A stretch of DNA of 62,065 bases from Lachnospiraceae bacterium (lineage in GTDB: Bacteria; Bacillota; Clostridia; Lachnospirales; Lachnospiraceae), in the NCBI GenBank assembly GCA_021770755.1, contig JAETQI010000024.1:1-62065 (forward strand), given 5' to 3'. Position numbers and translations under genes: made by a program. The notes under the pieces were generated by a model. It was given only the letters and a program-made list of their open reading frames with translations, was not told the origin of the DNA and ran no database searches. Every line of letters starts with the position of its first letter. Position 1 is the stretch's first letter. Shown here in pieces: positions 3,876 through 18,285 of the stretch.

Positions 3876-4709
3876 ATGTTTTGGAACGCAAAAAACGGGC
3901 GCATCGATCTTGATGACGCCGATATGGATTATATTTCATTTGGAAAAGGACACGATGTCCTCGTCATGATCCCCGGACTCGGGGACGGACTGGCGACAGT
4001 GAAGGGTATGGCGTACCCGCTTGCGTACACCTACCGCATGTACGCCAAAGACTACAGGGTATTCATATTCAGCCGGAAAAATCATCTGGAAAAGTATGTA
4101 CAGACGGGCTATTCCACAAGGGAAATGGCAAAAGACCTGGCACATGCCATGAGAAAACTGGATATCACGCACGCAAAGGTGCTGGGCGTCTCCCAGGGCG
4201 GCATGATCGCGCAGTACCTGGCGATCGATGATCCCGCACTCGTCGACAGGCTCGTGCTTGCCGTCACCCTGTCAAGGCCAAACGAAACTGTCCGAAATGT
4301 CATTGACCGCTGGATCCGGTTTGCCGGGCAGAATGATCACCGCTCCCTCATGATCGACACCGCGGAAAGATCGTATTCAGAAGATTACTTGAAAAAATAC
4401 CGCCGCCTCTATCCACTCCTCACACGCATGGGAAAGCCAAAGGATTACAGCCGCTTTATCGTGCAGGCTGCCGCCTGCGCACAGCATGACGCCTACGCAT
4501 CACTGCGCGGTATCGCCTGCCCGACCCTGGTCATCGGCGGCGGCAAGGACCAAATCGTTACCGGCAGCGCTTCTGTCGAGGTCGCTGACCAGATCCCCGG
4601 AAGCGAACTGTATCTGTATCAGGAGCTTGGCCACGCCGCCTACGAGGAGGCAAAGGATTTCAACAGCCGTGTGACCGCATTTCTTTCCAAAGGAGCACGC
4701 TGCAGGTAA
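3876..4709 (+). CDS. Alpha/beta hydrolase
   Basis: A 277-residue alpha/beta-hydrolase fold protein, likely cytoplasmic. VMIPGLGDG supplies the oxyanion region, GVSQGG the nucleophile (Ser106), GGGKDQIV the acid (Asp225) and ELGHAAYEE the histidine (His253), so the triad is complete. The substrate is unknown; relatives include esterases and C-C bond hydrolases. The start at 3876 is chosen because GGGGGAGG sits just upstream and the conserved fold begins there; the frame is open to 3720 but that part includes the promoter. The last 50 bases overlap the convergent kinase gene. Confidence 0.85.
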   Translation: MFWNAKNGRIDLDDADMDYISFGKGHDVLVMIPGLGDGLATVKGMAYPLAYTYRMYAKDYRVFIFSRKNHLEKYVQTGYSTREMAKDLAHAMRKLDITHAKVLGVSQGGMIAQYLAIDDPALVDRLVLAVTLSRPNETVRNVIDRWIRFAGQNDHRSLMIDTAERSYSEDYLKKYRRLYPLLTRMGKPKDYSRFIVQAAACAQHDAYASLRGIACPTLVIGGGKDQIVTGSASVEVADQIPGSELYLYQELGHAAYEEAKDFNSRVTAFLSKGARCR

Positions 4710-5952
4710 ATACACCCTTTTCGGCGGAAAAGTGCGCGTCCCCGCCATATTTTTCTGCAATGCTGCGTATGCTATCCACCCCCACGCCCTCATGGTCCTT
4801 CGCCTGCGGAATACCATCGCAGAAATGAATATCATCTGTACAGCTATTCTGGCACCGCAGAAGGATCATGGCATTTTCCTGCTGTGCCGCGATCTCGATC
4901 CTGCGCTCTCCTGCAACCTCCATACAGCCGTGCACAGCGTTCTCCAGCATGTTGGAAAGCACCGATACCAGATCCACGTCGGAGACACACAATTCCTTGT
5001 CAAGCCTGATATCCGCGTTCATCGCGATACCGCACGGCTTCGCCCTGCGCATGTAGACAGCGATCAGGTTATTGACTGCATGATTCTTGCAGTATCTCCT
5101 GTCACACTTTTCCTCCTCGATCTGCTCGTACTCCTTGAGATACGCAAGGATCCCCTCATAATCCCTCTGCTCGGCGAGCGCCATCACGACCGTGTTGTGA
5201 TGACGGAAATCGTGGCGTGTCTGCCGTACACTGCGCTCCGTCTTCTCATACGCCTCCACCTGCGCCTTCAACGCTTTCTCATGAACCAGCATCAGCCTAA
5301 GCTGGTACGCGCGATTCTCCTGTACCATAAAATAAAACAACAGCACATACACGATCAGCATGAACAAATAGCAGAGTGTCATCACAAAGACATGCCCCAT
5401 ACTCTTCTCCCGATGCCATTCATTATAAAATGTCAGGAAAGTCATCATGACAAATGTAAGGCTCGAGATGCAGGCGATCAGCCCGTAACCGTTCTGCATC
5501 TGGCTGTATATCCGGCGCAGCTTCTCTCTGAAAAAGATGAGATACACAGACAGAAAAAACAGGTTCAATCCGGCGCGAAGTCCCCAGACAGCGCTGTTTC
5601 CAGTTCCTGCAGGACTCCCCGTGACGACCGAGATAAAACAATAGATAAAAGTCCACAGACTGTAGTATGTCGAGACCAGGAACACAGACTTTCCCGGATG
5701 CGAAGCGGACAAAAAAAGCACAAATCCCCCGCCCAGGACGACGGAAGCCAGCAGGTAAGCGGATAAATATACCATTTTCTCCGGCAATCCTGACTTCGCA
5801 AGCACCAGATAAATCAATTCAAACAGGATACCGTCTGTGATCGATATCAGCAGCATCTTTTTCTTTCCATGTTTGGGTTCCAGCGCAAGGTTATAAAACC
5901 AGATCACATGAAAAAAGATATTGATGAAATTAGTGATCAGCGCCTCACGCAT
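4660..5952 (-). CDS. GHKL sensor histidine kinase (AgrC/VirS type)
   Basis: A 430-residue membrane kinase. About six hydrophobic segments occupy residues 1-205. A coiled linker leads to QTRHDFRHHN, the phosphoacceptor region typical of GHKL kinases, then SNMLENAVHGC (N box) and EGVGVDSIRSIAEKYGG (G box). It should autophosphorylate and pass phosphate to the LytTR regulator encoded just upstream. The start at 5952 has AAGGAG upstream and overlaps the regulator's stop by eight bases, so the pair is one operon. No agrB/agrD-like peptide gene is nearby, so the signal is unknown. The 3' end overlaps the convergent hydrolase gene by 50 bases. Confidence 0.9.
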   Translation of the reverse strand: MREALITNFINIFFHVIWFYNLALEPKHGKKKMLLISITDGILFELIYLVLAKSGLPEKMVYLSAYLLASVVLGGGFVLFLSASHPGKSVFLVSTYYSLWTFIYCFISVVTGSPAGTGNSAVWGLRAGLNLFFLSVYLIFFREKLRRIYSQMQNGYGLIACISSLTFVMMTFLTFYNEWHREKSMGHVFVMTLCYLFMLIVYVLLFYFMVQENRAYQLRLMLVHEKALKAQVEAYEKTERSVRQTRHDFRHHNTVVMALAEQRDYEGILAYLKEYEQIEEEKCDRRYCKNHAVNNLIAVYMRRAKPCGIAMNADIRLDKELCVSDVDLVSVLSNMLENAVHGCMEVAGERRIEIAAQQENAMILLRCQNSCTDDIHFCDGIPQAKDHEGVGVDSIRSIAEKYGGDAHFSAEKGVFTCSVLLWKEMRSHGC

Positions 5953-6712
5953 TGTCCTGCTCCTTTGTATCGATCGATGCAAAATTTTTCCGATTGAAAT
6001 AATAGTCAAAATATTTTTCCCGCAAGGCTTTGTACGATCCCCTCGGCAGATAGATCCGTTCTCCATTGTCCAGTTCCAGCATGCGCGTGCTCAGGCGTTC
6101 TATGTGCTCCAGATTGACAATATAAGAAGCCCCCAGCCGTGTGAACTCCCTGCGCGGCGCAAGCATCTCGCAGAGCCTTGCCAGTGTCAGTTTCATGGAC
6201 ACGCTCTCCCCCTCTTTGAGATAGATGCACTGATTCTTGCGCTGCGCCTCGCAGTACAGGATATCGCACAGCGCGATCTTGCGCACATGTTCCGCCTCCT
6301 GCACAAAGATATAGCGCATCTGGTCATCATCAAGCTTCTGGAGAGCCCTGTCAAATACATGATAAAAATGTTCAGGATCGATCGGCTTGACCATATACGA
6401 GAACGCCTCCACCCCAAACGCCTCAAGCGCGTGATTTCTGGACGAAGTCAGAAATATAATACGGCAGTCCTGCCCCAGCCTGCGCAGCTTCTCTGCCGCC
6501 TCGATACCCGATTCTCCAGGCATATAGATATCCATAAATACCAGATCCGGCTGATATTGTCCCTGCTGTATCGCGCAGAACAACTCTTCCGGATCCACAA
6601 ACTGTCTGATCTGAAATCTCCTGTCCGCAAACTGCCCGTGGTATGCGCACAACATACGCTCGATCTTGTCCAATTCCGTCTGTTCATCATCACAGAGCGC
6701 TATCTGATACAT
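5945..6712 (-). CDS. LytTR family response regulator
   Basis: A 255-residue regulator. The receiver domain (about residues 1-120) shows the acidic pocket CDDE, the phosphoacceptor in LVFMDIYMPG and the conserved Lys in YMVKPID. The LytTR DNA-binding domain (about 140-240) has CDILYCEAQRKNQ and FTRLGASYIVNLEHIE. It is the partner of the kinase encoded next to it. The start MYQIAL at 6712 is chosen because GAGGTGG lies six bases upstream; six codons of open frame before it carry that site. Targets may include the motif-bearing promoters described at 9312 and 16847, as inference. Confidence 0.92.
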   Translation of the reverse strand: MYQIALCDDEQTELDKIERMLCAYHGQFADRRFQIRQFVDPEELFCAIQQGQYQPDLVFMDIYMPGESGIEAAEKLRRLGQDCRIIFLTSSRNHALEAFGVEAFSYMVKPIDPEHFYHVFDRALQKLDDDQMRYIFVQEAEHVRKIALCDILYCEAQRKNQCIYLKEGESVSMKLTLARLCEMLAPRREFTRLGASYIVNLEHIERLSTRMLELDNGERIYLPRGSYKALREKYFDYYFNRKNFASIDTKEQDNA

Positions 6713-8591: not shown

Positions 8592-8696
8592 CTGAAAATG
8601 CCTCCTTCTACAACTGTGTGATCTTCTCTTCGAGAAAATAACCTTTTTATTTACTATACCACAGTTGCAGCCGTCTTTCCATAATCCTGACTATTT

Positions 8697-8754
8697 TAGA
8701 GCGTATTGAAAAATCCAGCGTTTTATTCTATGATACTATCTGAGAAACGCTCTC
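8697..8754. repeat. Possible decayed MITE, related to the one at 27545
   Basis: TAGAGCGTATTGAAAAATCC at 8697-8716 closely resembles the left end of the MITE at 27543 (TAGAGCGTGTTTGAAAAAT), and CGCTCTC at 8749-8754 could be its reduced right end. Only about 58 bases separate them, so this would be a heavily deleted copy. It could also be a simple hairpin. Confidence 0.3.
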
Positions 8755-8863
8755 AACCACATACACCGTTACCTGATCCATACGTGCTCCCGGAAACTCC
8801 CCTGCACCCGCTGCTTTGGCGCAGAGAGACTCCGAGAGCCTATCGCTTTCCTAGGAGGAAAAA

Positions 8864-9316
8864 ATGGACATTATCAAAATATCTGAAAACAAAAAGCAAT
8901 ATCTTAACCTGCTCCTGCTCGCGGACGAACAGGAGAGCATGATCGACCGCTACCTGGAACGCGGCACAATGTACGCCCTGGACGACGGCGGCATCCGCGC
9001 AGTCTGTGTCGTCACCGACGAGGGCGGCGGCATACTCGAGATCAAAAACATCGCAACCGCGCCGGAATATCAGGGCAGAGGCTACGGCAGACGGCTGATC
9101 GCTTTTATCATACAGCAATATCAAAAAACGTTTCAGATCCTGCAGGTCGGCACAGGCGACAGCCCCCTGACGGTTCCCTTTTATGAAAAGTGCGGTTTTC
9201 AGAGATCGCACACCATCAGGAATTTCTTTGTCGACAACTATGACCATCCTATCTTTGAGTGCGGCAAGCAGTTGACCGATATGGTCTATTTCCGTATGGA
9301 ACTGAATAAAATCTAG
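8864..9316 (+). CDS. GNAT family N-acetyltransferase
   Basis: A 150-residue acetyltransferase. EIKNIATAPEYQGRGYGRRL is motif A with the Q/RxxGxG/A acetyl-CoA loop (about residues 64-83), followed by VPFYEKCGFQRS. It resembles B. subtilis YvbK-type enzymes; the acceptor is unknown. AGGAGG is six to seven bases before the ATG. It is followed by the direct repeats at 9312 and the lipoprotein gene. Confidence 0.88.
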   Translation: MDIIKISENKKQYLNLLLLADEQESMIDRYLERGTMYALDDGGIRAVCVVTDEGGGILEIKNIATAPEYQGRGYGRRLIAFIIQQYQKTFQILQVGTGDSPLTVPFYEKCGFQRSHTIRNFFVDNYDHPIFECGKQLTDMVYFRMELNKI

Positions 9317-9348
9317 TCGATTCAGCACATATTCTAGTCGATTCATGT
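9312..9348 (+). promoter_or_regulatory. Candidate LytTR operator: direct repeat TCTAGTCGATTCA
   Basis: TCTAGTCGATTCA occurs at 9312-9324 and again at 9333-9345, 21 bases apart from start to start, i.e. two helical turns. LytTR regulators are known to bind imperfect direct repeats with about this spacing. A TATAAT -10 element at 9378-9383 follows 43 bases after the second TAGTCG, and the lipoprotein starts at 9430. A related TAGTCGATCCATGT is found at 16847. The link to LytTR is inference. Confidence 0.45.
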
Positions 9349-9429
9349 TAAAAAACGCCGCTTCGTGATCTTTTGTGTATAATGATCAGGATAACATTTC
9401 AATTTTCAGTTTAAGTAGGAGGAAAAAGA

Positions 9430-10233
9430 ATGAAAAAGAAAATTGTATCGATCATGTTAACTGTCATGATGATGGCATCGCTGACGACCGCCTGCGGCGG
9501 GGACAACAAGAAAGCGAACGCCGCATCCACCGCAAATACCCAGACAGCGGCGCCGGCAGACACAAAAGCCGACACGCCTGCTCCGGCAGACACAAAAGCG
9601 GACACACCTACTCCGGCAGACACAAAAGCCGACACACCTGCAAGTGATGACGCTGCCTCGGCGACCGACGCAGATGTGGTATCCGATGAACTGTTTTCAG
9701 AACTGCAGAACATTTATGACCTGCTCGTCCAGCACTATAACGCAGTCATAGATCTGTACACCGACGATGCGATCGCGGCAAACCCGGAGATCGATGATGT
9801 GCTGAATCAGGCACGGGATCTGATCGAGGAGATGGGCGAGATCACGCAGGATACCCTGACCGTGACAGATGCGCAGGATCTGCTCGATGCCATGGAGATC
9901 ATTGTGGACGGACTCAATGAGCTGACCGATCAGATGGAGTTGACGGACGATGCGGCCGCAGCGGAAGGCGAAACAGTATCCGATGAGACTTTTGCCTCAT
10001 TGCAGGAAAGCTTTGAAGCTTTGACGACAGCTTACAACACGATCGCGGAGGCTTACAATGACGGTGCGGAAGAAAACGCCGATATTGTGGACACCATGAA
10101 TCAGGCATACGACATCATCGGGCAAATGGGCGAGATCACGCAGGATAATATCACAGAAGCAGATGCCGAGGAGCTTCTCAATGCCATGCTCGACATCCTT
10201 GAAGTGCTTTCTGTGGTCGCCGATGCCATGTAA
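9430..10233 (+). CDS. Lipoprotein with tandem duplicated domain
   Basis: A 267-residue predicted lipoprotein: a Lys-rich start, hydrophobic core and lipobox LTTAC (Cys22), so it should be anchored outside the membrane. Residues about 40-75 are three copies of the ten-residue unit PADTKADTPx, encoded by a 30-bp tandem repeat. Two homologous helical domains of about 80 residues follow, each starting SDE.F..LQ and containing MGEITQD. The function is unknown. It lies between a candidate LytTR operator and the four-domain response regulator, so it may be a target or an accessory of that system. AGGAGG precedes the start. Confidence 0.75.
   Translation: MKKKIVSIMLTVMMMASLTTACGGDNKKANAASTANTQTAAPADTKADTPAPADTKADTPTPADTKADTPASDDAASATDADVVSDELFSELQNIYDLLVQHYNAVIDLYTDDAIAANPEIDDVLNQARDLIEEMGEITQDTLTVTDAQDLLDAMEIIVDGLNELTDQMELTDDAAAAEGETVSDETFASLQESFEALTTAYNTIAEAYNDGAEENADIVDTMNQAYDIIGQMGEITQDNITEADAEELLNAMLDILEVLSVVADAM
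9553..9642 (+). repeat. 30-bp in-frame tandem repeat, three copies
   Basis: Three units beginning CCGGCAGACACAAAAGC at 9553, 9583 and 9613, differing at a few positions. They encode the PADTKADTPx spacer of the lipoprotein and are a likely site of copy-number change. Confidence 0.85.
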
Positions 10234-10249
10234 AAAACTGACATAGATT

Positions 10250-10278
10250 TTGATTTGATTGCGGCCGCAGACTATGAT
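10250..10278 (+). promoter_or_regulatory. Sigma-A-like promoter for the two-component operon
   Basis: TTGATT (10250-10255) and TATGAT (10273-10278) are 17 bases apart and lie 40 bases before the regulator start at 10318. Confidence 0.5.
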
Positions 10279-10317
10279 ATCATAGACACATAAAATTTGT
10301 ATATGGAGGATGAAACC

Positions 10318-11760
10318 ATGCGGATAGCCGTCTGCGATGACGACGAGCGGGACATTGCCCGCATTGGCAAACTGATCGCGGAATATCAGACAAGTCGTGA
10401 TCAGATGGTCGATTGTCACTATTTCACTAACAGCACGGATTTCCTGTGTGAACTTAGGGGCGGGGAGTACGACCTTGTCCTGCTGGATGCCCTGATGCCG
10501 GGCGTCGACGGGATACACGCTGCGCAGGAGCTAAGAACCCTGGATCAGAATGTCAGGCTCATCTTTGTGTCTGCATCACCGGAATTTGCTGTAGAAAGCT
10601 ACAATGTGGGAGCATACCACTATCTGCTCAAACCGCTGGACGCCGGTTCCCTCTTTGCGCAGCTTGACAAAATAACAGACGAACTGTCTGGGCAGGCGAC
10701 GCAGGGACTTGTGCTAAGGAGCAGGGAAGGGATCGTCCAGATCGCATTTTCGAGGCTTGCGTATGTGGAAGTCATCAATAAGACGGTATTCTTTCATCTG
10801 ACAGACGGCACGGTCCGGGAAGTGACTGCTACTTTGGCGGATTTTGAGGAGAAACTCTTATCCAGACCGGAATTTCTAAAGACTCACCGCTCCTATCTCG
10901 TCAATCTGGGTTTTGTCCAGGCGGCCGGCATCAACTGTGTTATCATGAAGGGCGGAAACAGAATTCCGGTATCGCGCCAGCGGCGCAGTCTGGTACAGGA
11001 TGCCTATATGCACTATCTGCACCAGACGCCTCCAGAGGACTTTGCAGCCGGCAATGCCAAACGCCCCGATGGTCCCTGGCGGATCCTGCTGGCAGACGAT
11101 GATCCGGCAGACCGCGCAGTCTGGGCTGATATCCTGCGAAACCATGGCTGTATCGTCCAAGTGGCGGGCAGCGGTGAGGAAGCACTCCGGCAGGCATCGG
11201 ACGGGCTCTGTGACTGCGTGCTGCTGGATGTGATGTTTCCCGGCGAGGACGGATTTTCCATCTGCGAAAAACTGACCAATCTGACCCAGGCACCTGTCAT
11301 CTTTCTAAGCTGCCTCACCGATCCGGACAAACAGGTTGAAGGATTTTCGGCTGGCGGTATCGACTATATCACAAAAGATACGTCTGCGGCGCTTTTCTGG
11401 GCAAAAATAGAAACGCGCATCCGGCTGGCAAAATCAGAGCGCACACAGCTACATTACGGCGCGCTTCTTCTGGATCTGACAAGACGCCGGGTGCTGATCG
11501 ATGGCAGGGAACTGTTTCTCACCCCGGTCGAGTTCGATATCCTGTGGCGTCTCTCCGAGCACGCGGATCATGTCTTTACACCGGAAGAGATCTTTGACAT
11601 GTTCTGGAACGGGCAGCCGTGGGATGGCGGGCAGCTAGTGCAAAAGCATATGTCGCAGCTCCGGCGAAAGCTGGAAAAAGCATGGAGCGCACACCGCTTT
11701 ATCGAGACCGTCTGGGGACAGGGCTACCGCTTCGTTCCAGAAAAGGAGGCACACATATGA
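10318..11760 (+). CDS. Four-domain response regulator REC-LytTR-REC-OmpR/PhoB winged helix
   Basis: A 480-residue protein that joins two complete response regulators. Residues 1-120 are a receiver (CDDDE, Asp57 in LLDALMPG, Lys105 in YLLKPLD). Residues about 130-235 are a LytTR domain (RLAYVEVINKT, FLKTHRSYLVNL). Residues about 250-370 are a second receiver (LLADDDP, LLDVMFPGEDG, YITKDTS). Residues about 380-478 are an OmpR/PhoB winged helix (LTPVEFDILWRL, VQKHMSQLRRKL, TVWGQGYRFVP). All key residues are kept in both receivers. The start has GGAGG nine bases upstream. It overlaps the kinase gene by four bases. Each half alone is standard; the fusion is unusual. Confidence 0.9.
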   Translation: MRIAVCDDDERDIARIGKLIAEYQTSRDQMVDCHYFTNSTDFLCELRGGEYDLVLLDALMPGVDGIHAAQELRTLDQNVRLIFVSASPEFAVESYNVGAYHYLLKPLDAGSLFAQLDKITDELSGQATQGLVLRSREGIVQIAFSRLAYVEVINKTVFFHLTDGTVREVTATLADFEEKLLSRPEFLKTHRSYLVNLGFVQAAGINCVIMKGGNRIPVSRQRRSLVQDAYMHYLHQTPPEDFAAGNAKRPDGPWRILLADDDPADRAVWADILRNHGCIVQVAGSGEEALRQASDGLCDCVLLDVMFPGEDGFSICEKLTNLTQAPVIFLSCLTDPDKQVEGFSAGGIDYITKDTSAALFWAKIETRIRLAKSERTQLHYGALLLDLTRRRVLIDGRELFLTPVEFDILWRLSEHADHVFTPEEIFDMFWNGQPWDGGQLVQKHMSQLRRKLEKAWSAHRFIETVWGQGYRFVPEKEAHI

Positions 11761-13661
11761 AACAGCGCAGATTCTGGCGTCAGCCGCTGGCTGTAATGGC
11801 AGCGATGGCGCTTTTTTTCATGTTGTCTTACTATAAGGACAACAAATATTACACGCCGCCTCCTTACGGAAGATCCGGCGTGATCGATCTGAACGAGACA
11901 GATCTTGCGCGCAGGGATCCCATCTTTCTCATTGACGGATGGCTGCTGACGGACGGGCGCGTGACAGACAAGCCCACTTATATCGGCGAATTCTCCAATC
12001 TGCAGCGCAGGGATCTGCGCGTCTCCCCGCACGGGCAGGCGCGTTATCAGCTAACGCTGCGCTATGACGGAGCCGGCCGGATCGTATCGGTAGATTTCCC
12101 GCAGTTATATTCCGCGTACACGGTTCTTCTGGATGGCATACCGCTTGCCCAGGGAACGGGCAGCGGACGGATCACGTTTCTGCTGACAGCAGGCGATCAC
12201 ACGCTGGTCGTGGAAACTTTTTCCAGTATAGGATACTACAGCGGAATGTATTTCCCGCCAGCGCTGGGTACGCCGGAGACATTTTTTCAGATCGACTCTA
12301 CCCGTCATTTTATCCATGCAATAGCATTTCTGATCCCGCTGGCACTGGCGGTATTCACGCTTTTTCTGTGGTGGACGGGCGGAAAGCTGGCACACTGGTT
12401 TGTAGTGCTGTGCTGCAGTTATGCACTGTACATGGCGCGCTTTTTTGCACTGCCGATCACACAGTACTGGTTTCTGATGCAGAGCCTGGCGCTGTACTGT
12501 CTATGTTTCTGCATCGTACAGCTTACGGTTCTGGCAGCCAATGCCGTCCACAGCCGGGCGTGGCGGCGGATCCGTGCGGTACTGCTGGCTCTTCCAGTCA
12601 TCCTGACGGCACTGAGTCTGCTGATCCCGGTATTGACGTGGGCAGTTTTCGTTCACGGCAGACTGACGGATCTCTATTATGTCGCAACGTTCTGCGCTGC
12701 TGCCGTATTCTCCGCGCGCAGTGTGACGGCACAGGGCTGGGAAAGCCGCTATACGCTGGTCGGCTGCACCGTATTTGGCGCGGGGCTCCTCGCAAATCTC
12801 CTTTTCTCCAACCGATTTGAACCGATCCGCTTTCTCTGGCAGTTTGAGTGGTGCGGGCTGCTGCTTGTTCTGTTGTTTGGCGCCATGATGGTATCGCGCA
12901 GCCGAAGGATCCTGATGGAAAACGAACTGCTGACCAACCATCTGGAAGAGCAGGTAAAGAAACGGACGCAGGAGGTGACACAGCTTCTGGAGGAACGCAA
13001 GGCGTTCTTTTCCGATATGGCACATGACTTGAAAGCGCCGGTATTTGCCACGCAGTCCTTTATCGAGGCGATCCGCAAAAGCGGTGTCGGCGTCGATTCG
13101 GAGCTGCAGGGTTATCTCGACCAGGCAGAAGCCAAGCAGTGGGAGATGGCAAGACGCCTCCAGGGGCTCTCCACGATCAATGCGCTGGACCGCATTGAAG
13201 AAAAACGGGTTCCGGTGTCTGTACAGGAGATGCTCTCGGAAATCTACGCCACCCACTCCGGGGAAGCCGAAGTCCAGTCCGTGTACCTGGTCGTGGAACC
13301 GCCGGAAACGGACGCATTTCTGATGGCTCAGCCGGAAAAACTGAACATTTTATTTGAAAATCTGATCTACAACGCACTCAGGGCGACACCACGCAACGGC
13401 AGTATCACGATATCCGCGTCGGCGAAAGCCGATCAGATCCGTATCACGGTCTCCGACACCGGATGCGGCATTCCCGAGGAGGAGCTTCCGCTTGTCTTTC
13501 GGCGGTTTTATGTGGGTGCCAATAACAGAGATACCGGTACAGGATTGGGATTGTACATCGTCCAGGGCATCGTGACCGATATGGGCGGAACGATCGAGGT
13601 ACACTCCACTGTGGGCAGAGGCACACAATTTATCCTAAAGATTCCGCAATATAGCCCGTGA
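11757..13661 (+). CDS. Membrane sensor histidine kinase with 7TM-DISM-like sensor
   Basis: A 634-residue kinase. An N-terminal membrane helix is followed by an extracytoplasmic beta-rich part (about 45-175), seven or so hydrophobic segments (about 180-385; 7TMR-DISM-like), a coiled coil, HisKA with DMAHDLKAPV (phosphoacceptor His), and HATPase with ENLIYNALRAT (N box), DTGCGIP (G1), FRRFY (F box) and GTGLGLYIV (G2). The start at 11757 has AAGGAGG eight bases upstream and overlaps the regulator stop (ATGA), so the two are coupled. A single kinase next to a regulator with two receivers means it may phosphorylate either or both. Ligand unknown. Confidence 0.9.
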   Translation: MKQRRFWRQPLAVMAAMALFFMLSYYKDNKYYTPPPYGRSGVIDLNETDLARRDPIFLIDGWLLTDGRVTDKPTYIGEFSNLQRRDLRVSPHGQARYQLTLRYDGAGRIVSVDFPQLYSAYTVLLDGIPLAQGTGSGRITFLLTAGDHTLVVETFSSIGYYSGMYFPPALGTPETFFQIDSTRHFIHAIAFLIPLALAVFTLFLWWTGGKLAHWFVVLCCSYALYMARFFALPITQYWFLMQSLALYCLCFCIVQLTVLAANAVHSRAWRRIRAVLLALPVILTALSLLIPVLTWAVFVHGRLTDLYYVATFCAAAVFSARSVTAQGWESRYTLVGCTVFGAGLLANLLFSNRFEPIRFLWQFEWCGLLLVLLFGAMMVSRSRRILMENELLTNHLEEQVKKRTQEVTQLLEERKAFFSDMAHDLKAPVFATQSFIEAIRKSGVGVDSELQGYLDQAEAKQWEMARRLQGLSTINALDRIEEKRVPVSVQEMLSEIYATHSGEAEVQSVYLVVEPPETDAFLMAQPEKLNILFENLIYNALRATPRNGSITISASAKADQIRITVSDTGCGIPEEELPLVFRRFYVGANNRDTGTGLGLYIVQGIVTDMGGTIEVHSTVGRGTQFILKIPQYSP

Positions 13662-13674
13662 TAGATCATACGTT

Positions 13675-15909
13675 TCATCTGCCTGCGATCTTTCGGAAGA
13701 ATCCGGCAAGCCGGCGCAGCAGATTGTATCCTGCCGCCTTGAAGACAACGGCACCGATGCAGGCGACTGCCGTTGCGGCTGTTACCGCCGCTGGCAGAAA
13801 CCGCTTCTGACCATTTTCTTTTTCATCCAGGTTATGCACAGCCGCCGCAGTATCTCCTTCATTTTTCCTTTCCGGCGCCGCCTGTACTACAAGCGGCGGC
13901 TGCACCGTACTGTCAAGCCACTCCAGCGCGCGGTTCCCACCCCCGTCCGCAGGATTTTCCGCTGCAGTCTCTGATAGCTCTTCCGCCTCTTCTGCTCCCT
14001 GCGGCATCTGCGGCAGATCGGGGCGCTGCCCGCTCCCAATGTCTTCTGCCTTCTGCGCCTGATACGGAAACGAAACATCCTCGTATTCCTCCGGGACTGA
14101 CGCATCTGCAGGAGCCATCGATACCGTTTCTTCTTCCGATACTGGCGATGAGACTGGCTGGCGCTCCTGCTGATCGTCGTCCGGCTGCCAGGGCAGGTCT
14201 GGCCGCTGTCCGTCCTCTGTGCTGTCGTCCTTGTTGTCTGCCCCGGCATTACCCTCATTTCCGCCCGCGCCTCCGACTTCGGGCAGATCAGGGAGCTTAT
14301 CGTAGCTATCCGGCCATGCGAGGATAAGCTGTCTGCCGTCATAGACACCGCCCTCGACCTTAAGCCCTACAAAAAACGGTACGGGCACGTCACCCGCGTC
14401 GACTGCTTCCAGATAGGACCGAAACGGTTCCTGATCACTGCGCAGCAGGAGCACATAGCCGCTGCCTGCGTTCGCGATCTGGGCGTTCATCTCCTTTAAA
14501 ATAGAATGCCCTGTCAGCTTCGTCCACTCCGACGCCCCCTCCGTCATCACATACGCCTGTATCGCGGTCGCACCTGTGGGCTTTGGATACAGCGCTATCT
14601 GCAGATCCTTTATCTCCTGCCTCAATGCCCCCGTGAGACTTCTGTCCTCCGAGCTGACATTCAGCACCAGCTCAACCCTGTCATCATAATAAAATTCCGT
14701 ATACAGGGCAAGCGGTTCCTCCAGCACATAGATCCCAAACGGTGTTTTGATCTGTGTACCAGCCGGAACCTGGATCTTCTCTGCGGCGTCTGAAACTGTG
14801 AAGCTTTCGCCGGCGGAAAGCCCGGGAAGGTCTAGTGATCTCCATGCGACCGGACAATCCACAACAGCAGATGCGTTGATCTGCGTTCCGTACCAGATCT
14901 CCACGCGAATGGGCAGTGTCTTTGGCAGCATCGCAGCGATCTCGCTGGCTGTGGCATCTGCGGGCACGGTCAACTGATATCTTCCAAATCTGATCGGAAG
15001 CCGCGGATGGTCCGGGTTTGCCTCGCTGGCAGTCATCGCAGATGAGAAGAACGCCTTGCATTCTGCCCCCTCCGGAAGTGGCTGAACCTCCCCGCGTCCA
15101 AAGAATTCAGACTCCGTATCATAAGTACTCCCGCTTCTGTCTGTGATGCGCAGCCTGACATAAAAACAGTCTATTTCCCCTGTCTTATAACTTTTCAGCG
15201 GTTCATAGTAGCCAAAGAGGCATCGCTGATTCTGCAATCCATTCAGTCTGTCCTCATCATCCGTGTCCAGAATTTCGGGATAGTCTAAACCCAAATTCCA
15301 GCCTCCTCCCACGGCGGTCTGCCAGTTCTCCCCGTCGAGCGAATACATGGTATCAATCCGGGTGATGTCAGGCGTAAAATCCGTAAATGTGCCGATCACA
15401 AAATAATCACAGAGTTCATATACGATGCGGGCATGAAATGCAGGTGCGGACATGGCATACGACTCCTCCACAGCCATCTCTGCTGATTGTCCTGGCGTGT
15501 GACCTAATTCAGTGGTGGTTTCCATTTCGATCTCGGATTCTTCGGATCCTGTTTTGATTTGGGTTTCCGTTTCTGTTTCTGTCTCAGACTCTGTTTCAGC
15601 TTCGTTTTCTATATCAGATTCGATCTCCGTTGTCGCTTCTGCCTTCGTCTTTATTTCAAGCTCAGTTTCAGATTCTATTTCCGTTTCTATTTCTGATTCT
15701 ATTTCCGTTTCAGTCTCTATCCCGCTCCCGCTGTCCGTCTCGATCCTGTTTTCCGTGTCCGTTCCTGCATGCCATGGATCCCCTTCGGTCTCCTGTGCTA
15801 TATCCGTGCTTTCCGGCGGCTGATCCGCCTTCACCGGGATCATCGCAAAACTGCCCGACATGATCATCACTGCTGCGAGCATTGCCGCAGATCTCTGCCA
15901 TATTTTCAT
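13675..15909 (-). CDS. Large exported surface protein with Glu/Thr-rich region
   Basis: A 744-residue protein with an N-terminal signal peptide ending near PVKA. Residues about 50-130 are a highly acidic low-complexity stretch (alternating E, T, S, I: ETEIES, ETETETET). The middle (about 150-530) has several domain-like, beta-rich segments. A second Pro/Glu-rich linker follows, and a C-terminal hydrophobic helix (FLPAAVTAATAVACIGAVVF) followed by basic residues anchors it in the membrane. No LPxTG motif is seen. No family is recognised. It is convergent with the kinase gene, 13 bases apart. AAAGGAG precedes the start. Confidence 0.7.
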   Translation of the reverse strand: MKIWQRSAAMLAAVMIMSGSFAMIPVKADQPPESTDIAQETEGDPWHAGTDTENRIETDSGSGIETETEIESEIETEIESETELEIKTKAEATTEIESDIENEAETESETETETETQIKTGSEESEIEMETTTELGHTPGQSAEMAVEESYAMSAPAFHARIVYELCDYFVIGTFTDFTPDITRIDTMYSLDGENWQTAVGGGWNLGLDYPEILDTDDEDRLNGLQNQRCLFGYYEPLKSYKTGEIDCFYVRLRITDRSGSTYDTESEFFGRGEVQPLPEGAECKAFFSSAMTASEANPDHPRLPIRFGRYQLTVPADATASEIAAMLPKTLPIRVEIWYGTQINASAVVDCPVAWRSLDLPGLSAGESFTVSDAAEKIQVPAGTQIKTPFGIYVLEEPLALYTEFYYDDRVELVLNVSSEDRSLTGALRQEIKDLQIALYPKPTGATAIQAYVMTEGASEWTKLTGHSILKEMNAQIANAGSGYVLLLRSDQEPFRSYLEAVDAGDVPVPFFVGLKVEGGVYDGRQLILAWPDSYDKLPDLPEVGGAGGNEGNAGADNKDDSTEDGQRPDLPWQPDDDQQERQPVSSPVSEEETVSMAPADASVPEEYEDVSFPYQAQKAEDIGSGQRPDLPQMPQGAEEAEELSETAAENPADGGGNRALEWLDSTVQPPLVVQAAPERKNEGDTAAAVHNLDEKENGQKRFLPAAVTAATAVACIGAVVFKAAGYNLLRRLAGFFRKIAGR
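15512..15760 (-). repeat. Degenerate hexamer repeat coding for the Glu/Thr-rich stretch
   Basis: On the minus strand this stretch is made of GAA/GAG alternating with ACT/ATA/TCA type codons, giving ETE, EIE and ESE units. It is prone to slippage. On the plus strand it yields an open frame of Ser/Val repeats which is only a shadow. Confidence 0.7.
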
Positions 15910-16095
15910 AGGTATGTACTCCTTTGGGACGTATTCTTACCGTTCGCGCAGTTTCAGATACCTTTCACACCGCAGACGGTTTTTATGTCATATTCCTGTT
16001 AAGATTGATGACGATTTACTGTTTATTAACCATAAATATAAAATAATAAGCCGTGCCTTGTCAAGCTTTTACATTTTATAAGGAGTGATCGATCT

Positions 16096-16845
16096 ATGAT
16101 AAAAGTCGCATTTTGTGGCGATGACACGTCCGCATTGCGCGAACTCAATAAACTGACCGGCAAATATTCCGCCAGAAACGGCAGGGCGATAGGAACTGAT
16201 ATTTTCCACCGTTCTCTTGATCTGCTCTCTGCAATCGAAAAAGGCGTCCATTACGATATCCTGTTTCTGGACGTCACCCTGACAAATGAGAACAAGATCC
16301 ATATCGCAAAAGAAATCCGCCAGTATGACAGCGTTGTCAAGATCATCTTCTTGACATCATCAACGGAATGTGCAGTACAGTCCTACACCTTCGACGCATA
16401 TTTCTACCAGCGCGATCCGATCTGGACAGGAAATTTTTTCAAACTGATGGATTCCGCAATCGCCGAATGCCAGGAGGAACAGAACTCCAGTCTGATCCTG
16501 CGCGGCAAGAGCGGCATCACCCGGATCGATCTGAACAGACTCAGATATTGCGAGGTGTTCAGGCGCACCCTGCTGTTTCATATGGCGGACGGCAACGTCT
16601 GGGAAAACGCCGGAAGCATGGACGATCTGCATAAACAGCTCTCACAGTATGACAATTTCATGCGTCCACACCGTTCATTTCTGATCAATATGGAGTACAT
16701 ACAGAAGATCTCATACAAGACGGTTACGATGGAAGACCTGACAGAGATTCCCATCCCGCATGGAAAATGCTCCGATATCAAAAACAGATATCTTGAGTAT
16801 ATGTTTAGATCAGAGAGAAACGGAACGGCTGTCTGCATACCGTAA
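16096..16845 (+). CDS. LytTR regulator with degenerate receiver
   Basis: A 249-residue protein with receiver (about 1-120) and LytTR (about 140-240: RLRYCEVFRRTL, FMRPHRSFLINMEYI) domains. The phosphoacceptor Asp in LFLDVTL is kept, but the following MPG is LTN and the conserved Lys is lost: the usual YLLKP reads FYQRDP. It is therefore probably a pseudo-receiver not controlled by normal phosphorylation. No kinase gene adjoins it. A candidate LytTR site begins two bases after its stop, upstream of the ydjI operon, which it might control. AAGGAG lies upstream of the start with slightly long spacing. Confidence 0.85.
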   Translation: MIKVAFCGDDTSALRELNKLTGKYSARNGRAIGTDIFHRSLDLLSAIEKGVHYDILFLDVTLTNENKIHIAKEIRQYDSVVKIIFLTSSTECAVQSYTFDAYFYQRDPIWTGNFFKLMDSAIAECQEEQNSSLILRGKSGITRIDLNRLRYCEVFRRTLLFHMADGNVWENAGSMDDLHKQLSQYDNFMRPHRSFLINMEYIQKISYKTVTMEDLTEIPIPHGKCSDIKNRYLEYMFRSERNGTAVCIP

Positions 16846-16846
16846 A

Positions 16847-16891
16847 TAGTCGATCCATGTCATATTATCCATTTTTACACACTGATATGAT
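16847..16891 (+). promoter_or_regulatory. Candidate LytTR site and -10 element of the ydjIGH operon
   Basis: TAGTCGATCCATGT at 16847-16860 matches TAGTCGATTCATGT at 9335-9348 with one difference. A TATGAT -10 element lies at 16886-16891, giving almost the same spacing as at the lipoprotein promoter (39 against 43 bases). A second half-repeat is not clear here. Confidence 0.4.
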
Positions 16892-16947
16892 ACACTACGC
16901 AAGTATGTCTGTATCGAACGTACATATTTCAGAAAGGAGTTTTTGTT

Positions 16948-18285
16948 ATGGGTTTGATCAAAGCCGGAATGGGCGCGTTAGGAGGAACACTGGCCGATCA
17001 GTGGAAGGAATTTTTCTACTGTGAGGCGATGGATAAGGATATCATGGTCACAAAAGGCAGGAAGCGCACAAGTTCCCGCTCATCCAACACAAAAGGAAAT
17101 GATAATATCATCTCCAACGGCAGCGTGGTCGCCGTTGCCGATGGTCAGTGCATGATCATCGTGGATCAGGGGAAGGTCGTGGAAGTATGTGCGGAGCCGG
17201 GGGAATTCCGGTACGACACATCGACAGAACCGAGCATTTTCACAGGAAGTCTCGGCACAAGTATCAAAGAAACCTTTGGCGTGATCGGCAGACGGTTCAC
17301 ATTTGGCGGAGACACCGGCAAGGATCAGCGGGTGTACTACTTCAATACCAGGGAGCTGGTGGACAATAAATTCGGAACGCCAAACCCGATCCCTTTCCGC
17401 GTGGTGGATTCCAAGATCGGTCTGGATGTGGATGTCTCTGTCCGCTGCTCCGGTGTCTACTCCTACCGGATCGCTGATCCACTGCTTTTCTACACAAATG
17501 TCTGCGGCAATGTAGAAGACGACTATGAGCGCAGCGAGCTGGACAGCCAGCTCAAAACAGAGTTTATCAGTGCGCTGCAGCCTGCATTTGGCAGGCTCTC
17601 GGATCTGGAACTGCGCCCGAACCAGATCGTCTCCCACAACACAGATCTGGAGGCGGCGATGAATACCGTCCTGTCGGCAAAATGGGGTGAGCTGCGCGGA
17701 CTTAAGGTCGTCAGCATCGCGCTTGGCTCCGTCACCCTGCCGCCGGAAGACGCGGAGATGATCAAGCAGCTACAGCGCACCGCCGTACTGCAGAACCCCA
17801 ATATGGCCGGTGCCGCACTTGCAGGCGCCCAGGCGGATGCCATGAAAGCAGCAGCCTCCAACTCGGCAGGCGCGATGACAGGATTTATGGGCATGGGAAT
17901 GGCGATGAACGCCGGAGGCGGCATGAACGCGCAAAATCTTTTTGCGATGGGACAGCAGCAGGCGCCACAACAGCCGACAGCACAACAACATCAGGCACCG
18001 CCTCCATCCCAGACAGACACCTGGAAATGTTCTTGCGGAACCGTAGCGACAGGCAGATTCTGCCCGGAATGCGGGACAGCTAAACCCACGAGAAACAACG
18101 GATGGGTGTGCGCCTGCGGGGCGATCAACAAAGGCAGATTCTGCTCTGACTGCGGGGCAAAGAAACCGGAAACGCTGCCGCTGTACCGATGCGACAAATG
18201 CGGCTGGGAACCAAAAGACCCTGCCCATCCGCCCAAATTCTGCCCAGAATGCGGCGATGCATTTGATGAGAACGACATGCGCTGA
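16948..18285 (+). CDS. ydjI: SPFH-domain protein with C-terminal zinc ribbons, YdjI-like
   Basis: A 445-residue protein. Residues about 15-290 match the SPFH/virion-core-like family of B. subtilis YdjI (GNDNIISNGSVVAVADGQ, FRVVDSKIGLDVDVSVRCSG). A Gln/Met-rich linker follows and then three Cys pairs that form zinc ribbons (CSCG..CPECG, CACG..CSDCG, CDKCG..CPECG). In Bacillus the family works with YdjG, YdjH and the PspA-like YdjF in envelope stress; no pspA is seen here. The first gene of a three-gene set, AAAGGAG eight to nine bases before the ATG. The symbol is by similarity of family and of gene set. Confidence 0.85.
   Translation: MGLIKAGMGALGGTLADQWKEFFYCEAMDKDIMVTKGRKRTSSRSSNTKGNDNIISNGSVVAVADGQCMIIVDQGKVVEVCAEPGEFRYDTSTEPSIFTGSLGTSIKETFGVIGRRFTFGGDTGKDQRVYYFNTRELVDNKFGTPNPIPFRVVDSKIGLDVDVSVRCSGVYSYRIADPLLFYTNVCGNVEDDYERSELDSQLKTEFISALQPAFGRLSDLELRPNQIVSHNTDLEAAMNTVLSAKWGELRGLKVVSIALGSVTLPPEDAEMIKQLQRTAVLQNPNMAGAALAGAQADAMKAAASNSAGAMTGFMGMGMAMNAGGGMNAQNLFAMGQQQAPQQPTAQQHQAPPPSQTDTWKCSCGTVATGRFCPECGTAKPTRNNGWVCACGAINKGRFCSDCGAKKPETLPLYRCDKCGWEPKDPAHPPKFCPECGDAFDENDMR

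Follow-up and report, generated by a model that had tools for sequence, protein, structure and literature searches.

A lineage-restricted fusion of LytTR-type and OmpR/PhoB-type response regulators in Lachnospiraceae

Gene neighborhood and domain architecture

The window, by which we mean the whole 62,065-nt stretch analyzed, is contig JAETQI010000024.1 of a Lachnospiraceae bacterium (GCA_021770755.1), numbered along the forward strand. Its plus-strand positions 10,318–11,760 encode a response regulator of 480 amino acids in which two receivers, REC1 and REC2, alternate with two DNA-binding domains in the order REC1-LytTR-REC2-winged helix. The reading frame is uninterrupted from the ATG at 10,318 to the TGA at 11,758–11,760. 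In Pfam searches, Response_reg (PF00072) matched two stretches of the protein, scoring 131.1 bits over the full chain against a cut-off of 30.2, with the best stretch at residues 256–359. REC1 (residues 1–119; 10,318–10,674) is followed by the LytTR domain (PF04397; residues 138–228; 10,729–11,001), which covers profile positions 2–95 of 98 at 50.4 bits (cut-off 22.6). REC2 (Pfam match 256–359; 11,083–11,394) is followed by an OmpR/PhoB winged-helix domain (Trans_reg_C, PF00486; residues 396–472; 11,503–11,733) matching all of profile positions 1–77 of 77 at 69.6 bits (cut-off 26.2). All four domains lie on the plus strand. The completeness of both output domains, claimed in the initial annotation, was thus borne out by the profiles. 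The same holds for the acidic pocket, phosphoacceptor Asp, and Lys it had read in both receivers: the phosphorylation residues are intact in REC1 (D7-D8-D9, D57, S85, K105) and in REC2 (D260-D261-D262, D304, S331, K353). The usual receiver form is Lys-Pro; REC2 has Lys-Asp at that position.

The N-terminal half has the domain order of the LytTR family, receiver then LytTR, with the receiver present in 11 of 17 aligned orthologs. The C-terminal half has that of the OmpR/PhoB family, receiver then Trans_reg_C, both over cut-off. Judged by these domain tests, the two halves are typical members of their respective families, and the combination is without a precedent that we could find; no NCBIfam model reached its cut-off among the best 25 of 99. 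An AlphaFold model built with the 17 aligned orthologs consists of four compact domains (mean pLDDT 81.9), the strands and helices of REC1 spanning residues 2–127. The arrangement of the domains relative to one another is not to be trusted, since the pTM is 0.49. A variable linker joins the halves (residues 237–252; 11,026–11,073, plus strand); pLDDT falls below 50 at residues 237–248, and the linker is probably disordered. REC2 (model residues 252–375) took up the whole list returned by a structure search, which therefore says nothing about LytTR.

The regulator gene is coupled to that of a 634-residue membrane histidine kinase (11,757–13,661, plus strand), whose ATG (11,757–11,759) overlaps the regulator's TGA as ATGA, confirming the overlap noted earlier with the one adjoining kinase. 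Its HATPase_c domain scored over the Pfam cut-off and its HisKA match below it (21.3 bits; cut-off 26.9), and H423, the presumed phosphoacceptor His, is invariant in 15 aligned kinases. The kinase also has a beta-rich N-terminal part and about seven predicted membrane helices, in a model with pLDDT 65.6. The predicted topology fits a 7TMR-DISM-like kinase; 7TMR-DISM_7TM was not among the 13 families that the 15 aligned kinases matched at E 0.1, and a relative, the kinase of locus L112, matched this family (PF07695) at 27.0 bits, just below the cut-off of 29. There is no GHKL-type kinase beside the fused gene in the window.

Upstream of the regulator, a sigma-A-like promoter candidate, TTGATT-17-TATCAT (10,255–10,283, plus strand), was picked by its match to the consensus. 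The promoter scan gave an equal score to TTGATT-17-TATGAT, located five bases further upstream, and the same hexamers with spacing 17 occur in L060 and L071. No operator for the fused protein was found in its own upstream region, only this promoter-like sequence. Just upstream lies a lipoprotein-like gene with an internal repeated segment (9,430–10,233, plus strand); it has a match in six loci, over the whole length only in L075 and over the first 41–63 residues in the others.

Neighborhoods were compared across 18 loci (the window, L058–L066, and L071–L078). Convergent to the kinase lies the gene of an exported-looking protein with long acidic Glu/Thr repeats (13,675–15,909, minus strand), a relative of which is found in the same orientation in each of the 14 loci that extend to this point. 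Four of these proteins were run against Pfam and gave no informative match. The protein is a candidate partner of the sensor kinase. Beyond it, a separate REC-LytTR regulator (16,096–16,845, plus strand) has a degenerate receiver in the window, the acidic-pocket Asp being replaced by Gly and the conserved Lys by Arg; alignment showed these residues to be kept in nine orthologs. Unlike in other genomes, no GHKL kinase gene follows it. The system looks like one in decay to a phosphorylation-independent regulator. The full run of genes as far as the 16,096-type regulator and a GHKL-like kinase occurs in seven loci (L059, L060, L063, L072, L073, L076, and L077). In L074 a different gene, LysM-like by eye, starts at the position of the 16,096-type gene (L074:12,838–14,200).

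Conservation of the fusion and absence of REC1 from some orthologs

Related genomes contain ten other intact full-length copies of the regulator, 60–76% identical; one of them is in a strain-named draft (RAYE01000016.1) and several others are in MAGs. Among same-genus genomes the gene is present in 7 of 38, at full length in G000, G003, G004, and G030 and without REC1 in G005, G009, and G020. The kinase co-occurs with it in the identical seven genomes, in G030 only as a piece at a contig end. Among genomes drawn from the family, 4 of 397 have the gene (G000, G093, and G351 at full length; G402 without REC1). Scanning of named genome contigs yielded 12 loci: seven with both receivers (L058–L064; L058 is apparently the contig of G004, the layout being the same), two without REC1 (L065, L066), and three that match one half or less (L067–L069) and were left out of the ortholog set. 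The L064 ortholog (L064:10,001–11,450) has a frameshift at a G-run inside REC1, which may be either error or decay, and was left out of protein alignments and counts. The aligned set of 17 therefore consists of 11 intact full-length proteins, the window's included, and six without REC1. In 392 order-level and 391 class-level genomes, both halves were found in one protein at E 1e-45 only in the window and in G351; scoring in the family, order, and class searches was limited to each genome's best four candidates, so a convergent fusion could be missed. The fused regulator is real, conserved, and lineage-restricted.

All REC1 residues checked (D7, D8, D9, D57, S85, and K105) are kept in 11 of 11 full-length copies, and D260, D261, D304, S331, and K353 of REC2 in 17 of 17 aligned orthologs. 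In the LytTR domain, H190, R191, N196, R220, R222, and R223 are invariant. Mean pN/pS over full-length pairs is 0.256 for REC1, 0.267 for LytTR, 0.257 for REC2, and 0.230 for the winged helix, values that are rough because some pairs approach saturation at synonymous sites. Mean pairwise protein identity is 0.70, 0.67, 0.72, and 0.72, respectively, and 0.34 for the linker (residues 236–253). On these comparisons, purifying selection appears similar on all four domains.

LytTR, REC2, and the winged helix are present in all 17 aligned orthologs, and REC1 is missing in six. Two kinds of junction were seen. In L066, L073, L074, and L075 the opening of REC1 is kept and runs straight into the LytTR linker (ATGCGGATAGTGACTTGTGAT in L075 versus ATGCGGATAGCAATATGTGAC in L072), the resemblance being weakest in L066; L065 and L078 start inside the linker. 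No copy without LytTR was found in the genus, family, or contig searches. Since REC1-LytTR is collinear with standalone REC-LytTR regulators, loss of REC1 is far likelier than gain, although our trees have no outgroup. A tree of LytTR-REC2-winged helix plus kinase (15 rows; L062 and L071, which have no full kinase, are absent from the kinase trees) needs three label changes for the REC1 state. A single clade of REC1-less proteins was not rejected (p-AU 0.105), nor was one of the four that have a strand remnant (p-AU 0.136), and the two junction kinds favor at least two losses. The initial annotation had suggested that one protein could read, and integrate, two sites or two phosphorylation states. 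The idea of a single chain with a pair of inputs and a pair of outputs stands; as a general requirement, integration of two phosphorylation states does not hold, REC1 being missing in 6 of 17.

Relatives of the two halves and a conserved intergenic block

The closest N-half relatives examined are standalone REC-LytTR regulators, 40–44% identical, in loci L103–L110. A GHKL-like kinase, related to a GHKL kinase encoded elsewhere in the window, adjoins them in eight of eight loci; the kinase from L103 has its best whole-genome match in that other in-window kinase (4,660–6,066; E 3e-28). For the C-half, the two class-level matches examined are standalone REC-OmpR regulators, 35% (L112) and 33% (L113) identical. 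These are encoded near kinases that match the window kinase over nearly the whole length (E 4e-112 and 3e-107) and in which HisKA is over cut-off; in L112 an opposite-strand ORF lies between regulator and kinase. In a 38-row tree the fused N-halves formed one clade (100/100) that grouped with the standalone regulators (90/94), apart from the 16,096-type. Most simply, these relationships suggest that one fusion joined the regulators of two two-component systems and that only the C-half kept its kinase.

Derivation of the N-half from the neighboring 16,096 regulator was also considered and is unsupported, the nearest tree rows being standalone regulators. An earlier tree without most of these regulators, from which LytTR proteins of fewer than 200 residues (L001, L002, L004, L008, and L012) had been dropped, placed L079/L080 nearest to the fused N-halves.

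Upstream of the 15,909 gene we found a conserved 34-base block (15,938–15,971, minus strand) made of two LytTR-like half-sites and a conserved spacer. A LytTR repeat is 9 bases long. The half-sites of the block lie 21 bases apart, the period expected for LytTR repeats, which are described as mostly 12 bp apart (PMC6193735). The block is present in 10 of 13 upstream regions, nine found by regular expression and the L072 copy by eye, and is the only match in the genome to the degenerate pattern at three or fewer mismatches. Conservation amounts to 1.30 bits per column in the spacer and 1.52 and 1.71 in the half-sites; on the 5′ side it is 1.07 over the adjoining 12 bases and 0.75 beyond them, and in the 3′ flank 0.42, figures that are only suggestive as they come from ten related sequences.

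Nine of the ten block loci belong to loci or genomes with a 16,096-type gene. L061, L066, and L078 do not have it; each carries the fused gene and, in the fetched stretch, no 16,096-type gene. It is missing too from the fetched stretches of L081 and L082, where a 16,096-type gene is present and the fused gene is not. L079, with no fused gene, matched in part at 22.1 bits, against a maximum of 15.6 for shuffled sequences. In L074, from genome G009 (76% complete), the block is kept and no 16,096-type match was found at E 1e-35. The distribution follows the 16,096 regulator better, and for this reason we do not claim the block as the operator of the fused protein: it is probably the operator of the 16,096 regulator and possibly shared. 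In 8 of the 10 loci (not L075 or L076) the best promoter match lies 36–81 bases upstream of the block, which may therefore sit in a transcribed leader. Folded as RNA, the block gave five pairs and no two-sided change, and no Rfam family matched window positions 8,600–17,000 at gathering scores.

A proposed mode of action and its alternatives

We propose, with a probability of about 0.6, that the protein is a fusion of a LytTR-type and an OmpR/PhoB-type regulator, that it is the partner of the coupled kinase, and that it would act as a REC2 dimer with two folds on DNA and with REC1 dispensable. The coupled kinase would phosphorylate D304 of REC2. Phosphotransfer to REC2 is, as a sequence-based prediction, well founded, because the relatives of the kinase go with the relatives of the C-half. 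Dimerization of the OmpR type is established for the OmpR family, and phosphorylated REC2 would dimerize in this manner. The dimer would join two winged helices and two LytTR domains, with two different folds holding the DNA; the outcome would be either a longer, more selective operator or the linkage of two sites. REC1, where present, would serve as a second input that tunes LytTR binding and is inessential to the system. Its phosphate could come from a GHKL kinase elsewhere, from the coupled kinase, or from a small phosphodonor such as acetyl phosphate, by which the receiver of S. aureus LytR is phosphorylated before it dimerizes (PMC4830213). LytTR is found in every ortholog seen and REC1 is not; hence what the N-half lastingly contributes is probably DNA contact by LytTR, with REC1 as an additional control.

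A bidentate factor is a reading that we offer tentatively. Here the phospho-REC2 dimer would place two beta-type LytTR domains and two winged helices on one composite operator, and REC1 would be a removable phospho-input, taken away in some species, perhaps more than once, with the rest left intact. The 15,938–15,971 block, with its conserved spacer and its retention in G009 without a 16,096-type match, could be such a composite operator.

That the coupled kinase phosphorylates both receivers, making a two-site switch (graded or AND-type) that the REC1-less lineages have simplified to one site, seems to us unlikely. It would agree with the single coupled kinase, present wherever the fused protein occurs in the genus, and with the window REC1, which is intact though no GHKL gene follows the related 16,096 regulator. 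This intactness argues against the missing 16,096-linked GHKL kinase having been the only donor to REC1. However, the standalone relatives of REC1 pair with GHKL-like kinases and not with the coupled-kinase type, and the coupled kinases, 65–78% identical to that of the window in lineages with and without REC1, bear no sign of a lost partner.

We consider it rather improbable that reading DNA is not the main role of the LytTR half, and that this half instead pairs with other LytTR regulators (e.g., the 16,096 product) or only regulates REC2, the protein having an ordinary OmpR-type function. The variability of the linker and the presence of a separate REC-LytTR regulator nearby in 10 of 18 loci, the window included (several contigs end too soon), would accord with this. 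But LytTR is retained throughout, with invariant basic residues and a pN/pS like that of the other domains; moreover, the fused protein exists in G009 with no 16,096-type counterpart detected, and in G402, where the sole 16,096 match is 32% identical and of another REC-LytTR type.

Against the mode of action that we propose, the lack of REC1 in six orthologs also admits a reading in which the N-half is decaying. The N-half would then be a passenger of the fusion, with REC1 loss as the first step of its decay, and the L064 copy, in which REC1 is frameshifted and the raw sequence has Gly in place of the phosphoacceptor, would point the same way. This seems very improbable, since REC1 and LytTR are under purifying selection comparable to that on REC2 and every copy seen retains LytTR. 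A sequencing or assembly error that joined two adjacent genes, which the initial annotation had named as a possible refutation and which has nothing in its favor beyond the oddity of the architecture itself, is ruled out by intact fusions in ten other loci, RAYE01000016.1 among them.

Measured against known systems, the protein resembles OmpR/PhoB regulators such as MtrA (2gwr) and KdpE (4kfc) in its C-half, with conserved receiver residues and a HisKA-like partner kinase (usual for the family, not strictly defining), and departs from them by adding a whole second regulator, or at least LytTR, at the N terminus. With LytTR regulators of the AlgR/AgrA/LytR type it shares the REC1-LytTR half, which is 40–44% identical to standalone ones found beside GHKL-like kinases. 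In contrast to these, the fused gene has no adjoining GHKL kinase in the window (a usual feature of the relatives, not a defining one), LytTR is followed by another receiver and by another DNA-binding fold unrelated to it, and in six orthologs LytTR has no receiver of its own and precedes an OmpR-type regulator. FrzZ is a multi-receiver regulator, and regulators like it also have more than one receiver per chain; in the fused protein, however, the two receivers are each paired with a DNA-binding domain of a different kind. In PMC4618731, a table gives FrzZ as the name of a class. Among the papers listed in our literature searches, none was found with a regulator of the order REC-LytTR-REC-winged helix, in agreement with the initial annotation.

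The usual picture of a response regulator pairs a single receiver with a single output; the fused protein holds two entire regulators, each from a different family, in one chain. Natural relatives that lack only REC1 offer a ready comparison for what a receiver adds. Joint reading of one operator by two different DNA-binding folds becomes testable, as does insulation of the fused regulator from the kinase of the N-half donor system. As to LytTR domains at large, G000 has 24 matches over cut-off in its 4.7-Mb genome, and 5 of 14 control genomes have any.
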